Positions 5,714 to 29,111 of a DNA stretch of 64,000 bases are shown here, piece by piece. A program made the translations under genes and the position numbers. The notes under the pieces are model-generated. The model had not been told where the DNA came from and searched no databases. It saw only the letters and a list, made by a program, of their open reading frames with translations. Within the stretch, counting starts at the first letter, position 1. Each line of letters opens with the position of its first letter. Source of the DNA: Pseudodesulfovibrio aespoeensis Aspo-2 (GTDB taxonomy: Bacteria > Desulfobacterota > Desulfovibrionia > Desulfovibrionales > Desulfovibrionaceae); assembly GCF_000176915.2 (NCBI RefSeq), contig NC_014844.1:2294001-2358000 (forward strand). The letters are read 5' to 3'.

Positions 5714-6442
5714 CTAAAGAATTTCCTTCAGGAAGTTCTTTGTACGCTCATTCTGGGGATTCTTGAAGAATTCGTCCGGCGGAGCCTGCTCCACCACCAC
5801 GCCGCCGTCCATGAACAGGACGCGGTCGCTCACCTCGCGGGCAAAGCCCATCTCGTGGGTGACGCAGAGCATGGTCATGCCCTCGCGGGCCAGATCCTTC
5901 ATGACGTTGAGCACTTCGTTGATCATCTCCGGGTCCAGCGCCGAGGTGGGCTCGTCAAAGAGCATGACCTTGGGCTTCATGGCCAGGGCGCGCGCAATGG
6001 CTACCCGCTGCTGCTGGCCGCCCGAAAGCTCGGCAGGATACTTGTGCGCCTGATCGTGGATGCCGACGCGCTCAAGCAGGGCCAGAGCCAATTCCTCGGC
6101 CTCGTCCTTGGGGATATTCTTGACCTTCAGGGGGGCCAGGGTGACATTCTTGAGAACCGTGAGGTGGGGATAGAGATTGAACTGCTGGAAGACGATGCCG
6201 ATCTCGGCGCGCAGGCTGTTGATGTTGACACCCTTGTCGTGGATGTCCTTGCCGTCAAAGAGAATCTGCCCTTTCTGATACTCTTCGAGCCTGTTGATGC
6301 AGCGGATGAAGGTGGATTTGCCCGAGCCGGACGGCCCGCAGATGACCAGCACCTCTCCCTTGTTCACGGATTCGGTAATGCCCTGGAGGACATGAAAGTC
6401 GCCATACCACTTGTGCAGCTTCTGCACTTCGATCATTGCCAT
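5714..6442 (-). CDS. polar amino acid ABC transporter, ATP-binding protein
   Basis: This 242-residue ATPase of the GlnQ/HisP/GltL family drives the amino-acid importer. Walker A is GPSGSGKST (near residue 37), the signature is LSGGQQQR (near 138) and Walker B is [12 protein letters not shown] (near 158), with the H-loop in CVTHEMGF. The first ATG (6442) has GGAGTGAG upstream; a second ATG is two codons inside. It is the first gene of the operon ATPase, binding protein, permease, permease, deoC, cbiC. About 250 bases separate it from the divergent efflux adaptor. Confidence 0.93.
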
Positions 6443-23150: not shown

Positions 23151-23315
23151 TCAGCGAAGCAGCAGTCCAAGAATGGTGTACACGGCGAAACCCGCGCCGA
23201 GCGCAATATACATGAACATTCACGGCGCGCACCGGTCCCTGAATTTCCATGCCGCCAGCCCGGCCAGCCCCAGCCCGACAATGGCCGATATCACTATGTA
23301 GCCGATCTCTCCCAT
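23151..23315 (-). CDS. candidate small membrane selenoprotein with CxxU (in-frame TGA)
   Basis: Read with the in-frame TGA at 23222-23220 as selenocysteine, this is a 54-residue protein with two hydrophobic helices (IGYIVISAIVGLGLAGLAAW and MYIALGAGFAVYTILGLLL). A short basic loop KFRDRCAPU joins them. The TGA is codon 32 and falls exactly in a Cys-x-x-U pattern, the usual redox-active form in selenoproteins. The same frame stays open for 22 more codons, encoding a second helix, before a TGA stop. GAGGGGAG precedes the ATG, and a hairpin with a G-rich loop follows the TGA (23183-23199). Alternatives are a 31-residue one-helix protein, or a nonsense mutation with restart at the ATG right after the TGA. 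I do not recognise a named family. Confidence 0.55.
23183..23199 (-). promoter_or_regulatory. possible bacterial SECIS hairpin
   Basis: On the minus strand CGGCG-CGGGTTT-CGCCG forms a 5-bp stem whose 7-base loop contains GGG and begins 26 bases after the TGA. Bacterial SECIS elements lie directly downstream of UGA, with the apical loop roughly 16-37 bases away and a G at its start. The lower stem (TGTA with TACA) pairs only with a large bulge, so the structure is suggestive rather than certain. Confidence 0.45.
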
Positions 23316-23416
23316 ACTCCCCTCATACACCAGCCGCGCCCCCCTGTCACGTCCGGACGGGAGAAGGAGGGGAATGCCTCGAGCGGCCAGCTTGAACTCC
23401 TTTGACTACTTGGAAT

Positions 23417-23972
23417 GTCTTCCAATGCGCTACTCCTCATGGGCGGACAATAACCTCTCACTTCATGTCCGTCATCTCTGGACACTTCACCCTCCACCGG
23501 CCTGCTCCTGCCGGACGGCGAGTTCTGAAAGATGGTCGTGACCACGCCACTGAGGCGCGGCATGCCCCTCATCCGCTCCCGGACCGGCGACATGGGCCGC
23601 ATACTTGCGGGACAGTGCGCCTGCTCACCCCCTTTGCGCCGCCGCGATCCGCTGGTATGGAGAACCTCGGACGGCGTGAGCATCGGCGACCGCACCCTGA
23701 CGCTACGGGCGATCAGCGAGTGTCTGTATGCCCTGCCGGGTCTGGACGATTTCGCGGCATGGTTCGGGCAAGGCGTGTTGCGCATCGGGGCCTGCGGCGG
23801 CAGCGGCCTGTCGGCAGCTGTGGCTTCAGCCCTGGCCGATCTCCCGGCGGTGGTGCAGGGGCTCGTTTCAGGCGCGCTCGAACTGGAGATCGAAACACGA
23901 AGCAACGGCGCGCCAGCCATCGCGGGTCTGGGCAAACGTTGTCTGAAAATTCTCGGAGGAAAAGACGAATGA
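23417..23972 (+). pseudogene. decayed AMP-dependent CoA ligase (phenylacetate-CoA ligase-like), C-terminal remnant
   Basis: The readable part, 23532-23972, encodes MVVTTPLRRGMPLIRSRTGD, the conserved hinge of phenylacetate-CoA ligase-like enzymes, then the C-terminal domain to LGKRCLKILGG. Directly upstream the same frame reads LLLPDGEF then TGA, where intact relatives read PDGE-GE-VVTT. Still further upstream a different frame gives LSLHVRHLW. So the gene has at least one nonsense and one frameshift lesion and lacks its N-terminal two thirds. Intact relatives (the DVU_1553 type) sit beside xdhC and an NTP-transferase-HD gene, as here. Its stop still overlaps the xdhC ATG. A short free-standing C-domain protein from 23532 is possible but unlikely to be active. 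Confidence 0.65.
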
Positions 23973-24955
23973 AAGCCCTAGTACGCTCCCTGTGCGAACT
24001 CCTGACCTGCGGCGAAACCGTGGTGGTGGCGACCGTTGTGGAGAGCGCCGGGTCAACGCCGCGCTCCTCGGGCGCCAAGATGATCGTGCGGGCCAACGGC
24101 TCCATCATCGGCACCGTGGGCGGCGGCTTGGTCGAGGCAATGACCTGCCGCGACGGCCTCGCCCTGCTCCAGGCGGGCGACGGCGCGGCCCGGCTCATCT
24201 TCGTGAACCTGACCAGCTCCCTGGCCGCCGAATCGGACATGATCTGCGGCGGCGGCCTCTCGGTGCTGCTGGAGACCGTGGAGCCCGGCGGCTCGTGCGC
24301 CATTGCCTACGCGCGGCTGGACGACTGCATGCGGCGCGGCGTCCGCACGGCCCTGGAAACCCGGCTGGAGGAGGCCGACACCCTGCGGACCATGCACCAT
24401 GCGGTCCTCGACGCCCCTGCGAAAAACAGCATCGCCTTTGAGCGGCAGGCCGGGATCATGCGCCTGGTGGAACCCTTCATCCCCCCGTCGTCCCTCTACA
24501 TCTTCGGGGCCGGGCATGTGTCCCTGTTCACGGCGCGGGTCGGGGCCATGACCGGGTTCCGCACCGTGGTCCTCGACGACCGGGCCGATTTCGCCAACCG
24601 GGAACGCTTCCCCGAGGCGGACGAGGTGATCGTTCTGCCAACCTTTGCGGGCTGTTGCGACGGCCTGAATGTTTCCGGCAACGACTTCGTGGTCATCGTC
24701 ACCCGGGGACACCTGCATGACCGCACCGTGCTGGCCGAAACGCTTCGCACCCCTGCCGGATATGTGGGCATGATCGGCAGCCGCAGCAAGCGCGACAAGA
24801 TTTACGCCTCCCTGCTGGAGGACGGGTTCACCCGGCAGGACATGGACCGCTGCCATTGCCCCATCGGGTTGCCCATCGGCGCACACACGCCCGAGGAGAT
24901 AGCGGTCAGCATCGGCGCGGAGCTTATCAGCGCGCGTGCCGGGATGGGCAAATGA
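23969..24955 (+). CDS. XdhC family molybdenum-enzyme maturation factor
   Basis: The product has 328 residues. The XdhC N-terminal domain shows ATVVESAGSTPRSSGAKMIV and GTVGGGLVEA. The C-terminal Rossmann part starts at SLYIFGAGHVSLFTARVGAM and ends with MIGSRSKRDKI and GLPIGAHTPEEIAVSI. XdhC proteins bind and help sulfurate the molybdenum cofactor before insertion into xanthine or aldehyde oxidoreductases. GGAGGA precedes the ATG at 23969; the longer open frame to 23402 runs through the CoA-ligase remnant and is not used. It overlaps both neighbours by ATGA junctions. No molybdo-hydroxylase gene is in the window. Confidence 0.88.
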   Translation: MKALVRSLCELLTCGETVVVATVVESAGSTPRSSGAKMIVRANGSIIGTVGGGLVEAMTCRDGLALLQAGDGAARLIFVNLTSSLAAESDMICGGGLSVLLETVEPGGSCAIAYARLDDCMRRGVRTALETRLEEADTLRTMHHAVLDAPAKNSIAFERQAGIMRLVEPFIPPSSLYIFGAGHVSLFTARVGAMTGFRTVVLDDRADFANRERFPEADEVIVLPTFAGCCDGLNVSGNDFVVIVTRGHLHDRTVLAETLRTPAGYVGMIGSRSKRDKIYASLLEDGFTRQDMDRCHCPIGLPIGAHTPEEIAVSIGAELISARAGMGK

Positions 24956-26076
24956 GCGGGCTGGCCGCAATCATCCCGGCAGCCGGGCTCTCCTCGCGCA
25001 TGGGCCGGTGCAAGCCGCTGCTCCCTCTCGGCGGGGGCACGGTCCTGTCGCGCTGCATTGCCCTTTTTCAGGAGAATCGCATCGACCCGATCCTCGTGGT
25101 CACCGGCAAAAACAGGGATGCAGTGTCGTCCGAGGCGGTCAGGGCCGGGGTGATACCGATTCACAATAATCACTTCGAGCAGGGCATGTTCTCCTCGGTG
25201 CTGACAGGCATCGGCGCACTGCCCCCAGATGTGTCCGCGTTTTTTCTCTTGCCCGTGGACATGCCCCTGGTCAGGCCGGAGACGATCAGCCGACTGGTCG
25301 ACGAGTACCGCCGCACCGCCCCGGCCCTACTCTATCCCCGTTTTCTTGGCGAGCGCGGCCATCCGCCGGTCATCGGTCGGGAGCTGCTGCCCGATATCCT
25401 GCATCACGACGGCTTTGGCGGCCTGCGCACCGTGCTGCAACGCCACGAGGCCGACGCCCTAGACCTGGACGTGGCCGATTCGGGTACGCTCCTCGACCTG
25501 GATCATCCCGAGGACTACGAGCACGCCCTGGCCCGCTTCGACACCGCCTACCCCAACGAGCGCGAGTGCCGCCAGCTCTGGGCCATGCGCGATCTGCCGG
25601 AACACATCGCCGACCACTGCCGGGCCGTGGCCAGGGTGGCCGCAGCCCTGTGCGCCCGTCTCAACACCCGAAGCGGCGTGGCTGCGCTCAATCCGGCCCT
25701 GGTCCGGGGGGCCGCCCTCACCCACGACATTGGCAAAGGCACGAAGCGACACGAAACCGTGGGCGCGAATCTGTTGCGAACACACGGGTTCCACGCCGCC
25801 GCCGACATCGTGGCCGAACACTTTGACCTGACGCTCCCCCTGGACCAGCCCATCACGGAAAAGGAAGTGGTCTTCCTGGCCGACAAGCTCGTGCGCTGCC
25901 AATCCCCGGTCGCCCTGGACGCGCGTTACCTCGAAAAACTGGCCGCCCATCGCCACGAGCCTGGAGCCGGGCAGGCCATCCTTGGTCGCCTGGAGAGGGC
26001 CAGAAGCCTCCTGTCCCGCTTTGATCGCGAGATGGGTATTCCGGCAGAACTCCTTGCCAGGGAAGCCCTGGCCTGA
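24952..26076 (+). CDS. MobA-like NTP transferase fused to an HD domain (DVU_1551 type)
   Basis: This 374-residue protein has two domains. Residues 1-190 form a MobA/MocA-like nucleotidyltransferase with IIPAAGLSSRMGRCKPLLPL, FFLLPVDMPLVRPETI and GHPPVIGREL. Residues 205-360 form an HD hydrolase with HCRAVARVAAAL, GAALTHDIGKGTKRHE and AEHFDLTLP. MocA-type enzymes attach CMP to the molybdenum cofactor; the HD half might remove or hydrolyse a nucleotide product, but this is not established. The ATG overlaps the xdhC stop (ATGA). The fusion is the form found in Desulfovibrio beside XdhC and the CoA ligase. Confidence 0.85.
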   Translation: MSGLAAIIPAAGLSSRMGRCKPLLPLGGGTVLSRCIALFQENRIDPILVVTGKNRDAVSSEAVRAGVIPIHNNHFEQGMFSSVLTGIGALPPDVSAFFLLPVDMPLVRPETISRLVDEYRRTAPALLYPRFLGERGHPPVIGRELLPDILHHDGFGGLRTVLQRHEADALDLDVADSGTLLDLDHPEDYEHALARFDTAYPNERECRQLWAMRDLPEHIADHCRAVARVAAALCARLNTRSGVAALNPALVRGAALTHDIGKGTKRHETVGANLLRTHGFHAAADIVAEHFDLTLPLDQPITEKEVVFLADKLVRCQSPVALDARYLEKLAAHRHEPGAGQAILGRLERARSLLSRFDREMGIPAELLAREALA

Positions 26077-26393: not shown

Positions 26394-26684
26394 ATGACCA
26401 TGGCAATCGGCGGTTTCGGGGGCGGTTCGCCCTTTGATCAGCAGACGTTCGGTGCAGCCGTGGTATCGAAGACCATGGACTACATGAACAATTCGGGCGG
26501 CAGCTCGGGTTTCGCCCCGGTGGACAAAGCCTCCACCGAGGGTTCACTCGTCAGCAAGACCCTGGATTACATGAACTCCGGGTCCTTGTTCGGCGACAGC
26601 ACGGGCATGGCCCAAAGTTACGACTTCCAGACCAGTGTCCTTGGCGCCCACGCCAAGGGCTCCATCATCAACACCATCATCTGA
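26394..26684 (+). CDS. small protein with a repeated VSKTxDYMN motif, unknown function
   Basis: I do not recognise this 96-residue protein. It begins MTMAIGGFGGGSPFDQQTF and contains the nonapeptide VVSKTMDYMN near residue 24 and LVSKTLDYMN near residue 54, a 30-residue internal repeat unit. The end, AHAKGSIINTII, is hydrophobic. It has no signal peptide or clear helix bundle, and is rich in Gly, Ser and Met. GGGAGGG lies about nine bases before the ATG. It is a single gene between a spacer and a terminator, so context gives no function. Codon use matches the neighbourhood. Confidence 0.7.
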   Translation: MTMAIGGFGGGSPFDQQTFGAAVVSKTMDYMNNSGGSSGFAPVDKASTEGSLVSKTLDYMNSGSLFGDSTGMAQSYDFQTSVLGAHAKGSIINTII

Positions 26685-26836: not shown

Positions 26837-28750
26837 CTACTTGGTCTTTTTCAGCCGTATCTTATTGTCGATGATCAGCATTCCCTTCTCAAGCTGCCAC
26901 TTCATGGAAGTCGGCGGAGCGTTGACAGGGTTCCAGATCATGGTGTCGCCGTTGAACGTGTACGTTCCCTTCTGCGCGGCGATTGTCTCTTTCATGGTGC
27001 CCTTGGGAAATTGTTTCATGATCTCGGGCGTCAATTTCGAATTGAAATCAAAGGTGCCGTTCTTGTTCAACACAACCGTGTACACGGCCTGCGGCATCCC
27101 ATCCTGAAATCCTTTCCATGTGCCGAGCAGCGCATCGACGATGACGCTCTTGCGGACAATGGGAGCCTCCGGCTTGACGCCTTGTGATTCGAGCAGTGAT
27201 ACGCTGCCCGTGTTGCCCGCCCGGTTGGCGTAGCTCATGACCGTTTCGCCTGCGCCGTTTGTCTTCTGGGCGTCTGCGCCCTTCTCCATGAGGAGTTTCA
27301 CGAGCTTTTGATTGCCTGCTCCGGCTGCAAGCATCAGTGCGGTTTCACCCTTGTCATTCACCATGTCGAGATTCGCGCCCTTGCTGATCAGCAGGGCAGC
27401 CCGTTCGTATCCCTGCCCGGTGTTGGACTGCTGGGCCGCGGCCATGAGCGCGGTCCAGCCGTTTGCGGCCTGGAAGTCGACGTTGCCCGGTCCGGACAAG
27501 AGGTGTTTGATGATGGCGAGGCTGTCCTTGTTCTTGAATGGATCAGGATTCGTTGCCGCTGCCACCAGCGGGGTCACGAGCACGTTCACTGGCGACTTCA
27601 CATTTATCTCCGCCCCGGCATCGACCAGAGTCTTGACCATGTCGGCATGGGCCTGATGCACGGCAAGCATGAGCGCGGTGGAGCCGGATTTGTCGAAAAT
27701 ATCGAGCTTTGCCTTGCACTTGATAAGATATTTGGCTGCGGCCACCTGGTTTGCCCCTGCCGCGTAATGCAGCGGCGTTCCGCCCGTGGCCAGACCCTCA
27801 AGGTCGATGGCGGCACCATTGTCCAGCAAGAGCTTGGCGGCATCGACAAAGCCGAACTGTGAGGCCAGGTGCAGGGCGGCCATACCTCCGCCGTTCTGCC
27901 CGATCTTTTGCAAATCGAGTTGTGGCTTGAAGGTGATGAATTTTTCCATAAATTTGAAAATTGTCTTTGAATCATCGCCGCCGAGGCTGCTGATGGCCGT
28001 CATGAGCGTCGTGCTTCCGCCATTATCCACATGGTTGATGTCCGCTCCATTGGCCACGAGGTAGTCGAGCACTTCGCGTTTCTTGTGCAGAAATACCGTC
28101 GTCAGTACGGACTTGCCGGAGTTGTCAGCAGTATTGATGGTCGCGCCGTGCGTGTGCAGGAACTTCAACGTCTCTAAGTCTTCGTATTCAGAGATGAACC
28201 AGAGTGACGACTCACCGTCCTTGGTCCGTGCGTTGATGTCGATGCCCTTTCCCTGGGTGACGAGCACCTGGATCACGTCCGCGTGGTCCCGCTGTGCGGC
28301 CTTGATGAGCGCCGTATTGCCCCGTGATTCCGGGGTGCTGTCTGTCTGATCCTTCGCGTTTACCTTGGCACCCATCCGCAACAGGATGGCAACGATGTCC
28401 GCCTGCCCTGTGTGCGAGGCGAGGATGAGCGGCGTGCGCTCCCAATCGCCCCAGGCATCATAACTCACGCTGCGTTTGTTCACGTCCACTCCGGGAGATT
28501 GCAGAATCAGCCTGGTGATGTCCGGGTTTTGGCTTCGCAGCGCCCAGCACAGCATGGAGTCGCGGTCGTATATGGCGTTGATATCGGCGCCGCGCCCTAT
28601 GGCGTCTCTGGCCTTGGCCAAATCATTCCTGTAGATGGCTTCATACAGCGGTGGCCAGGGGGCATTCTCCGAGTATGCGAGAGCCGGAACTGACGTACTC
28701 AACACCCAAAAAGCCACCACGGCGATCTGGAACACTGCCTTGACTCTCAC
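26837..28750 (-). CDS. periplasmic ankyrin-repeat protein with a C-terminal beta domain
   Basis: The product has 637 residues. A signal peptide (VFQIAVVAFWVLSTSVPALA) is followed by more than a dozen ankyrin repeats from about residue 33 to 530, for example GGTPLHYAAGANQVAAAKYL and GWTALMAAAQQSNTG. The last 100 residues (LLGTWKGFQDGMPQAVYTVV onward) form a lipocalin-like beta domain seen in small secreted proteins. I chose the GTG at 28750 because GAGGAG stands six bases upstream; the frame is open to 29014, but that leader has no signal and poor coding character. The ankyrin part binds proteins; partner and role are unknown. Confidence 0.75.
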   Translation of the reverse strand: MRVKAVFQIAVVAFWVLSTSVPALAYSENAPWPPLYEAIYRNDLAKARDAIGRGADINAIYDRDSMLCWALRSQNPDITRLILQSPGVDVNKRSVSYDAWGDWERTPLILASHTGQADIVAILLRMGAKVNAKDQTDSTPESRGNTALIKAAQRDHADVIQVLVTQGKGIDINARTKDGESSLWFISEYEDLETLKFLHTHGATINTADNSGKSVLTTVFLHKKREVLDYLVANGADINHVDNGGSTTLMTAISSLGGDDSKTIFKFMEKFITFKPQLDLQKIGQNGGGMAALHLASQFGFVDAAKLLLDNGAAIDLEGLATGGTPLHYAAGANQVAAAKYLIKCKAKLDIFDKSGSTALMLAVHQAHADMVKTLVDAGAEINVKSPVNVLVTPLVAAATNPDPFKNKDSLAIIKHLLSGPGNVDFQAANGWTALMAAAQQSNTGQGYERAALLISKGANLDMVNDKGETALMLAAGAGNQKLVKLLMEKGADAQKTNGAGETVMSYANRAGNTGSVSLLESQGVKPEAPIVRKSVIVDALLGTWKGFQDGMPQAVYTVVLNKNGTFDFNSKLTPEIMKQFPKGTMKETIAAQKGTYTFNGDTMIWNPVNAPPTSMKWQLEKGMLIIDNKIRLKKTK

Positions 28751-29111
28751 TGGATACTCCTCAAGATTTCCCTTGGTGCTGGATCGCTCTCGCTCTCCCG
28801 TCTGCCTGCCGTGGCTTTGATTTCCACGTTGGGCATCTGAAGTGAGAGTGTGCCGAGGTCGGCTGAAACATGATGGACAGACGGAGCATACCAGTTGGAA
28901 AAACTGAAGGAAGCGTTTCATGGCGTGCCCGCGGCGATTGCCGTCAAAGTCGCCTTGCTGCCTGCAACGCCCGTTTGGGAGATTTTCACGCTCGCGACTT
29001 GAGCGCAAGCACAATAACCAGTTCGAAGAGAGAAGTGATCTCGGTCCGTCGGACCACCTCTGAAATCAAATTGATTTTACATCTGTCAACGGCATGAATT
29101 TTCTCCTGCGA
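28751..29111. other. spacer upstream of the ankyrin gene
   Basis: No convincing gene. A minus-strand frame stays open to 29014 in phase with the ankyrin gene, but its translation is rich in Arg, Ser and Cys and looks non-coding. The ankyrin-gene promoter is expected here. Confidence 0.4.

Follow-up and report, generated by a model that had tools for sequence, protein, structure and literature searches.

Does a very small reading frame of Pseudodesulfovibrio aespoeensis Aspo-2, interrupted by an in-frame TGA, encode a selenoprotein, or is it what is left of a broken gene? The frame lies in the 64,000-nucleotide stretch of DNA analyzed here (the window), which locates to the single chromosome of 3,629,109 bp, and direct reading of the minus strand from 23315 to 23151 gives MGEIGYIVISAIVGLGLAGLAAWKFRDRCAP-TGA-MFMYIALGAGFAVYTILGLLLR-TGA. 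An earlier note on this DNA had described a minus-strand frame of 54 codons with TGA as codon 32, a CxxU pattern and a hydrophobic half on either side of the TGA in one common frame, and all of these are seen in the window sequence. As judged from the sequence and its homologues, the putative selenoprotein gene (23151-23315, minus strand, as are all features of this gene) would specify 54 amino acids, its final three bases being the terminal TGA. The internal TGA (23220-23222), kept in relatives and across the phylum, is read here as selenocysteine U32; it is directly preceded by RDRCAP and, based on the sequence and the family, completes a C29-A-P-U32 motif (23220-23231) at the junction of the loop and the second helix. 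The ribosome site of the earlier note can be recognized as the purine-rich AGGGGAG (23317-23323), a possible ribosome-binding site by its sequence, although the gap of one base to the ATG at 23315 is closer than usual. The candidate SECIS hairpin, CGGCGCGGGTTTCGCCG (23183-23199), does begin 21 bases past the TGA, with a G in loop position 2 and the loop starting 25 nt after the UGA, but it is weak alone (-6.0 kcal/mol). By itself the window locus is not above chance, a single in-frame TGA in a frame of 54 codons being unremarkable; it exceeds chance because both the TGA and the protein are conserved among homologues.

The earlier note had proposed to look for homologues with Cys or TGA at codon 32. 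A six-frame, stop-tolerant search with the read-through protein as query, covering 148 genomes (the window genome and its relatives) at E<=0.001, returned 52 matches, 51 of which carry TGA at the same codon, in 50 genomes including that of the window; the 52nd is a stop-free paralogue adjoining a member of the family. Similarly, when 395 genomes of the phylum, again including that of the window, were searched with a profile, TGA occurred once in each of the 16 matches, two of which (G000 and G063) were those already known. TAA and TAG were likewise read through and counted, and the result for TGA was therefore not forced by the method. The TGA half of the expectation was thus borne out, while the Cys half was not, as no Cys homologue was found among the matches at E<=0.001 in either the 148 relatives or the 395 genomes of the phylum. 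To our knowledge nearly all selenoproteins have Cys homologues, which is usual rather than obligatory.

The family was further collected in two ways. By profile, 55 members were extracted from the window together with 57 further stretches, and the sole match above 25 bits that lacked C..U was the paralogue (L055). In addition, a TGA-bearing DNA pattern, which recovers 44 of these 55 known members, was run on named genomes and yielded 80 loci; 78 of them were members by profile, and the remaining two (L147 and L164) were dropped. Since this pattern required TGA, it contributes taxa and not evidence for the TGA. A single-protein locus search, the patterns of which read the Sec codon as Cys, found nothing. 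The titles of the pattern loci include Desulfobulbaceae, Desulfobulbus, Desulfogranum, Desulfurivibrio, Pseudodesulfovibrio, Desulfonatronum and Desulfonatronospira, among others, as well as one Myxococcota metagenome-assembled genome (MAG) and three MAGs from Clostridia. When the phyla of the Syntrophomonadaceae MAG and the Myxococcota MAG were searched, the centre genome alone was found (1/398 and 1/377, respectively), indicating that the family is rare there. From a total of 132 frames, after removal of identical copies and without two more distant ones, namely L164 and another frame in L089, 130 members were retained; 62 came from the DNA pattern and 68 did not. The script admitted only frames with Cys at -3 and U, and in the 62 the pattern predetermined further positions; conservation is therefore stated for the other 68, in which Pro-1 is found in 64, Tyr+4 in 64, Gly+8 in 66 and Gly+10 in all 68. 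The core of the family is accordingly C-x-P-U, followed by Y and GxG within the helix that comes next. Members are mostly 51-54 residues long (36-58 overall), lengths that are approximate since start codons were chosen by rule.

According to one alternative, the TGA is a true stop, and the second half is either a remnant or re-initiated at the following ATG, giving a broken gene or two peptides. The window copy offers some ground for this, as the codon directly after its TGA is indeed ATG and a one-helix peptide of 31 residues would be a plausible product. Across the 130 members, however, the residue after U is Met in just 14, the others having L (92), I (13), V (9), R (1) or A (1). Furthermore, the internal TGA is kept across the phylum, whereas the terminal stops are mixed (TAA 48, TAG 43, TGA 39), and the frame past the TGA is conserved as protein. 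In 54 sequences the mean majority identity of the coding frame after the TGA is 0.57 with stops in none, as opposed to 0.39 and 0.40 in the other two frames, which meet stops within 18 codons in 38/54 and 6/54 sequences, respectively. The pooled pN/pS is 0.55 after the TGA and 0.67 before it, ratios that are only indicative because pS is near saturation (0.67-0.68). Nor do the homologues end at the first helix, since in 117 of the 130 members the frame continues for 21 or 22 residues past U. Two observations that would have spoken for a broken gene, namely homologues ending at the first helix and random substitutions after the TGA, are thus absent, the latter in view of a pN/pS of 0.55 and of a single frame being conserved and stop-free. 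We consider the broken gene or pair of peptides highly improbable.

Reading an internal UGA as selenocysteine would involve SelB with Sec-tRNA, and the sel genes that the earlier note had asked about are all present in the window genome: selA (E 2.3e-180), selB (E 3.1e-111), selD (E 3.1e-97) and tRNA-Sec (82.3 bits, above the cut-off). The selD match itself carries one in-frame TGA, an internal sign of UGA decoding in this genome. Among the relatives, tRNA-Sec is above the cut-off in 138 of 148, and its presence or absence therefore gives no discrimination. Of nine genomes checked, seven have tRNA-Sec above the cut-off; these include the Myxococcota MAG and two of the three MAGs from Clostridia. 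None above the cut-off was seen in the remaining Clostridia MAG (G541, 1.7 Mb, with a short form of the protein) or in the genome of the discarded locus L164 (G543). The kept TGA, the frame-specific conservation and the presence of the sel genes strongly support the contention of the earlier note that this is a selenoprotein and not a broken gene, and the locus almost certainly represents a genuine one.

A SECIS-type hairpin with its loop about 20-28 nt downstream of the UGA would direct the insertion of Sec. The bacterial SECIS (bSECIS) model, as given in the available part of its source, asks for a loop of 3-9 nt with G in the first two positions and a stem of 4-16 bp, located 16-37 nt after the UGA and with a free energy of at most -7.5 kcal/mol (PMC13188914). 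It is satisfied by 86 of the 130 members, compared to 11% of 2,600 shuffles, in which the protein was preserved and codons were drawn according to local usage; of 650 windows taken in flanking ORFs, 6% qualify. Among the pattern-free members the count is 40/68 vs. 12.4% of 1,360 shuffles. A simpler stem score gave a mean z of 1.54 with 43% of members at P<=0.05, the respective values for 260 control windows being 0.04 and 5.0%. The commonest loop is AGGT (32/130), the loop begins 20 nt after the UGA in 62 members, and the best hairpins occupy several registers across the family. Codon choice also departs from the local background. Ala+9 is encoded by GCG in 44, GCA in 30 and GCC in one of 75 cases, while GCC accounts for 51% of Ala codons at the same loci, and Ile+7 is ATA in 29/48 vs. 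16% in the background.

For an 8-pair helix in 66 distinct sequences, standard pairs amount to 82.6%, compared to 78.1% in shuffles and at most 58.0% when the helix is slid, and two-sided changes occur in 27 cells vs. 9.9 in shuffles. However, there was no excess over shuffles in pairs with two-sided changes (3 vs. 3.5) or in further pair types (13 vs. 14.7), and RNAalifold returned an empty consensus on two alignments (55 ungapped sequences; A4). Conserved-looking stretches past the stop in three loci (L113, L119 and L174) are most simply explained as the beginning of an overlapping frame that follows. Regarding the window copy, its best model hairpin has -8.4 kcal/mol, with 4/100 shuffles equally good; CGGCGCGGGTTTCGCCG is outscored by an overlapping hairpin that has its loop 28 nt after the UGA, and the region can fold in further SECIS-like ways. 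The 48 nt from the TGA show no excess over dinucleotide shuffles (z +0.34, 123/200 at least as good). Within the genus of the window the strict model is satisfied by 13/31 members vs. 13% of shuffles, and outside it by 73/99 vs. 11%. The SECIS element proposed in the earlier note is therefore well supported for the family, by 86/130 members against 11% of shuffles, and moderately for the window copy, where -8.4 kcal/mol stands against a z of +0.34.

In the 124 two-helix members, hydrophobic stretches extend from about -28 to -10 and from +1 to +17 relative to U, separated by a loop (-9 to -1) with a mean net charge of +1.87 that is positive in 108/124. In 113 of the 124 there is no further Cys. 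A hairpin of two membrane helices is quite probable on these grounds, and the product is very likely a membrane-located selenoprotein of putative selenium content. According to the positive-inside rule, positively charged loops lie on the cytoplasmic side, and the loop with C-x-P-U would thus face the cytoplasm. Some members depart from the common plan. The three Clostridia MAG forms have 36, 38 and 38 residues, with CPPU followed by a single helix. A divergent frame, L209 (G566:C1:20544-20606), reads V-S-P-U and retains Pro-TGA and the following helix; with Val in place of Cys, it indicates that the Cys is not universal. The member L100 (G012) has a second in-frame TGA in its first helix and some altered conserved residues, and this copy is perhaps decaying. 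In L089, a frame at about 6131-6247 (G116:C9), right behind the member at 5952-6119, encodes one helix, CPPU and six residues, and is a possible tandem second mini selenoprotein.

What could such a protein do? In the mechanism that we propose, the short positively charged loop would end in Cys-x-Pro-Sec where the second helix begins, and the pair, lying at the membrane surface and facing the cytoplasm, would form a reversible selenenylsulfide. This site might reduce a membrane partner or a lipid-soluble oxidant and be regenerated by a thioredoxin-type reductant of the cytoplasm. To us the most likely role of C-x-P-U, albeit a tentative one, is that of a thiol/selenol redox site anchored in the membrane, as also suggested by the earlier note. 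The motif has CxxC-type spacing, stands where a hydrophobic segment begins and contained Sec wherever the family was found. The selenoprotein may also be real and C-x-P-U a binding or transport site for metal(loid) or selenide instead of a redox relay. A ligand site could consist of little more than a two-helix hairpin whose Cys/Sec pair lies at the face of the membrane, and the selenoproteins in the available part of the catalogue include a putative mercuric transport protein that contains Sec and has C/SxxU (PF02411; PMC13188914). However, PF02411 was not among the 25 of 38 Pfam families listed for 53 members, and no recurrent metal-handling neighbor was recognized in the loci compared, and we regard such a site as somewhat unlikely.

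The loci were indeed variable in gene content. Downstream of the selenoprotein gene, on the opposite strand, a MazG-like gene is found in 26 of 55 loci, followed by CvpA-like, dTDP-sugar-isomerase-like and sugar-nucleotide genes; in the window, mazG, cvpA and the isomerase were confirmed by Pfam. In five of the 55 loci, belonging to another family, the gene sits between genes that we take from their sequences to be der-like and dnaX-like. In 37 of 76 further loci the selenoprotein gene is preceded on its own strand by a presumably TypA-like GTPase gene, its name being equally our reading of the sequence; among 25 listed examples, 19 have an upstream frame with a TypA-like end, and in these the gap is 5 to 133 bases. 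The association was observed in Desulfobulbaceae-type loci, e.g., L151, L172 and L190. Beside the window gene there are also an XdhC/CoxI-family protein (23402-24955, plus strand) and a MobA-like NTP transferase joined to an HD domain (24856-26076, plus strand), neither of which is among the 25 largest neighbor clusters of the 55 loci. A 96-residue protein starting with MTMAIGGFGG (26394-26684, plus strand), without a Pfam family at E<=0.001, occurs near the selenoprotein gene in 20/55 loci, and a long ankyrin-repeat protein (26837-29014, minus strand; Pfam Ank_2, E 3.5e-78) was also seen in the window. These contexts are housekeeping in nature, shift between clades and are not informative on function.

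The neighborhood also bears on a further possibility, namely that the selenoprotein is a small accessory subunit packed within a larger complex of the membrane, in which the Cys-Sec pair would sense redox state. Its small size and the G-x-G kept in helix 2, which is suited to helix packing, are consistent with this, and so is a tandem two-helix paralogue (A2) adjoining the gene in 21 of the 148 genomes, all of the genus of the window but not the window genome itself. A2 has about 62 residues, ends in ...YYILNVVFGSGRTGWP with a kept C-terminal GR(T/I)GWP, and immediately precedes the selenoprotein gene on the same strand, e.g., in L055 (5991-6176, minus) and L071 (5647-5832, plus). It aligns with the selenoprotein profile over 53 columns (probability 96.9%, E 1.5e-10), whereas it lacks CxPU and ends in an ordinary stop (TAG, TAA or TGA). 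Pfam and NCBIfam gave weak membrane-type matches for 19 A2 paralogues, the strongest being AA_permease_2 (12/19, best E 2.8e-5), and no known family was recognized by these two databases. Nevertheless, no conserved complex genes adjoin the selenoprotein gene in the loci compared, and we judge an accessory subunit to be unlikely.

Comparison with databases points to a family of its own. In NCBIfam release 20.0 (June 2026), searched with 53 members at E<=1, there was no match for the window protein and no selenoprotein model among 25 of the 29 families listed; the best match elsewhere was a Loki-CTERM sorting domain (E 6.7e-4, eight members). At the same threshold, Pfam gave no meaningful family for the 53 members among 25 of the 38 listed, the others being weaker and confined to single members, and over both databases the window protein and the 53 members had weak membrane-type matches only. 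PDB sequences contained no relative (best E 0.45), and plasmid sequences no match. A catalogue of bacterial selenoproteins from 2026 counts 119 families, and no tiny CxPU membrane entry was recognized among them in its available part (PMC13188914). The deep-Sep method, as described in the accessible portion of its report, retains a candidate if it has a known Sec homologue or two or more Cys homologues, and for Salidesulfovibrio onnuriiensis IOR2 (3,886,744 bp) it lists 10 known and no new genes (PMC12013277). One of our genomes (G023), apparently this same strain, bears a member despite that count. A description of the family was not found in the portions available of the literature, including PMC9312934, PMC2398784, PMC1914089, PMC1794560 and PMC8318568. 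This is apparently a new, uncatalogued family of putative selenoproteins, with prior mention in supplements being possible.

We lean toward the view that there is an overlooked class of Sec-obligate micro-selenoproteins. Its first clear case would be the CxPU family, a membrane hairpin or single helix of 36-58 residues that occurs throughout Desulfobacterota and now and then in MAGs of Clostridia and Myxococcota. Such proteins would have escaped notice because discovery depends on annotated proteins and on the existence of Cys homologues, and the family exposes a blind spot of discovery by Cys/Sec pairs. Its architecture is unusual, comprising little beyond two membrane helices and a Cys-Sec pair. 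Given that no Cys form was found, the family marks a function for which selenium may have no substitute; if true, this would be a membrane-embedded selenol redox site where sulfur does not suffice.

Finally, the family can be set beside known systems. With the putative mercuric transport selenoprotein, the profile of which (PF02411) is absent among 25 of the 38 Pfam families listed for 53 members, the others being weaker single-member matches, it shares the character of a small membrane protein with a CxxU-like site. The known CxxU selenoproteins, such as SelW-like, GrdA and AhpD-like proteins as they appear in the available part of the catalogue, are similar in the UGA within a motif of redox type, the Cys three positions earlier, the downstream SECIS-type hairpin and the SelB-bearing hosts (PMC13188914). 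In contrast to them, the family described here has no match among the NCBIfam and Pfam families listed and no Cys form found, and its two hydrophobic segments make a protein that is probably too small for a thioredoxin domain. There was no profile match to the thioredoxin superfamily among the listed NCBIfam and Pfam families, the members consisting of two hydrophobic segments only. The active site of thioredoxin is CGPC, and such CxPC sites share with the family the C-x-P-(C/U) spacing and the Pro before the C-terminal chalcogen; the resemblance is one of motif only, as the family probably places it in a membrane hairpin without a thioredoxin domain.
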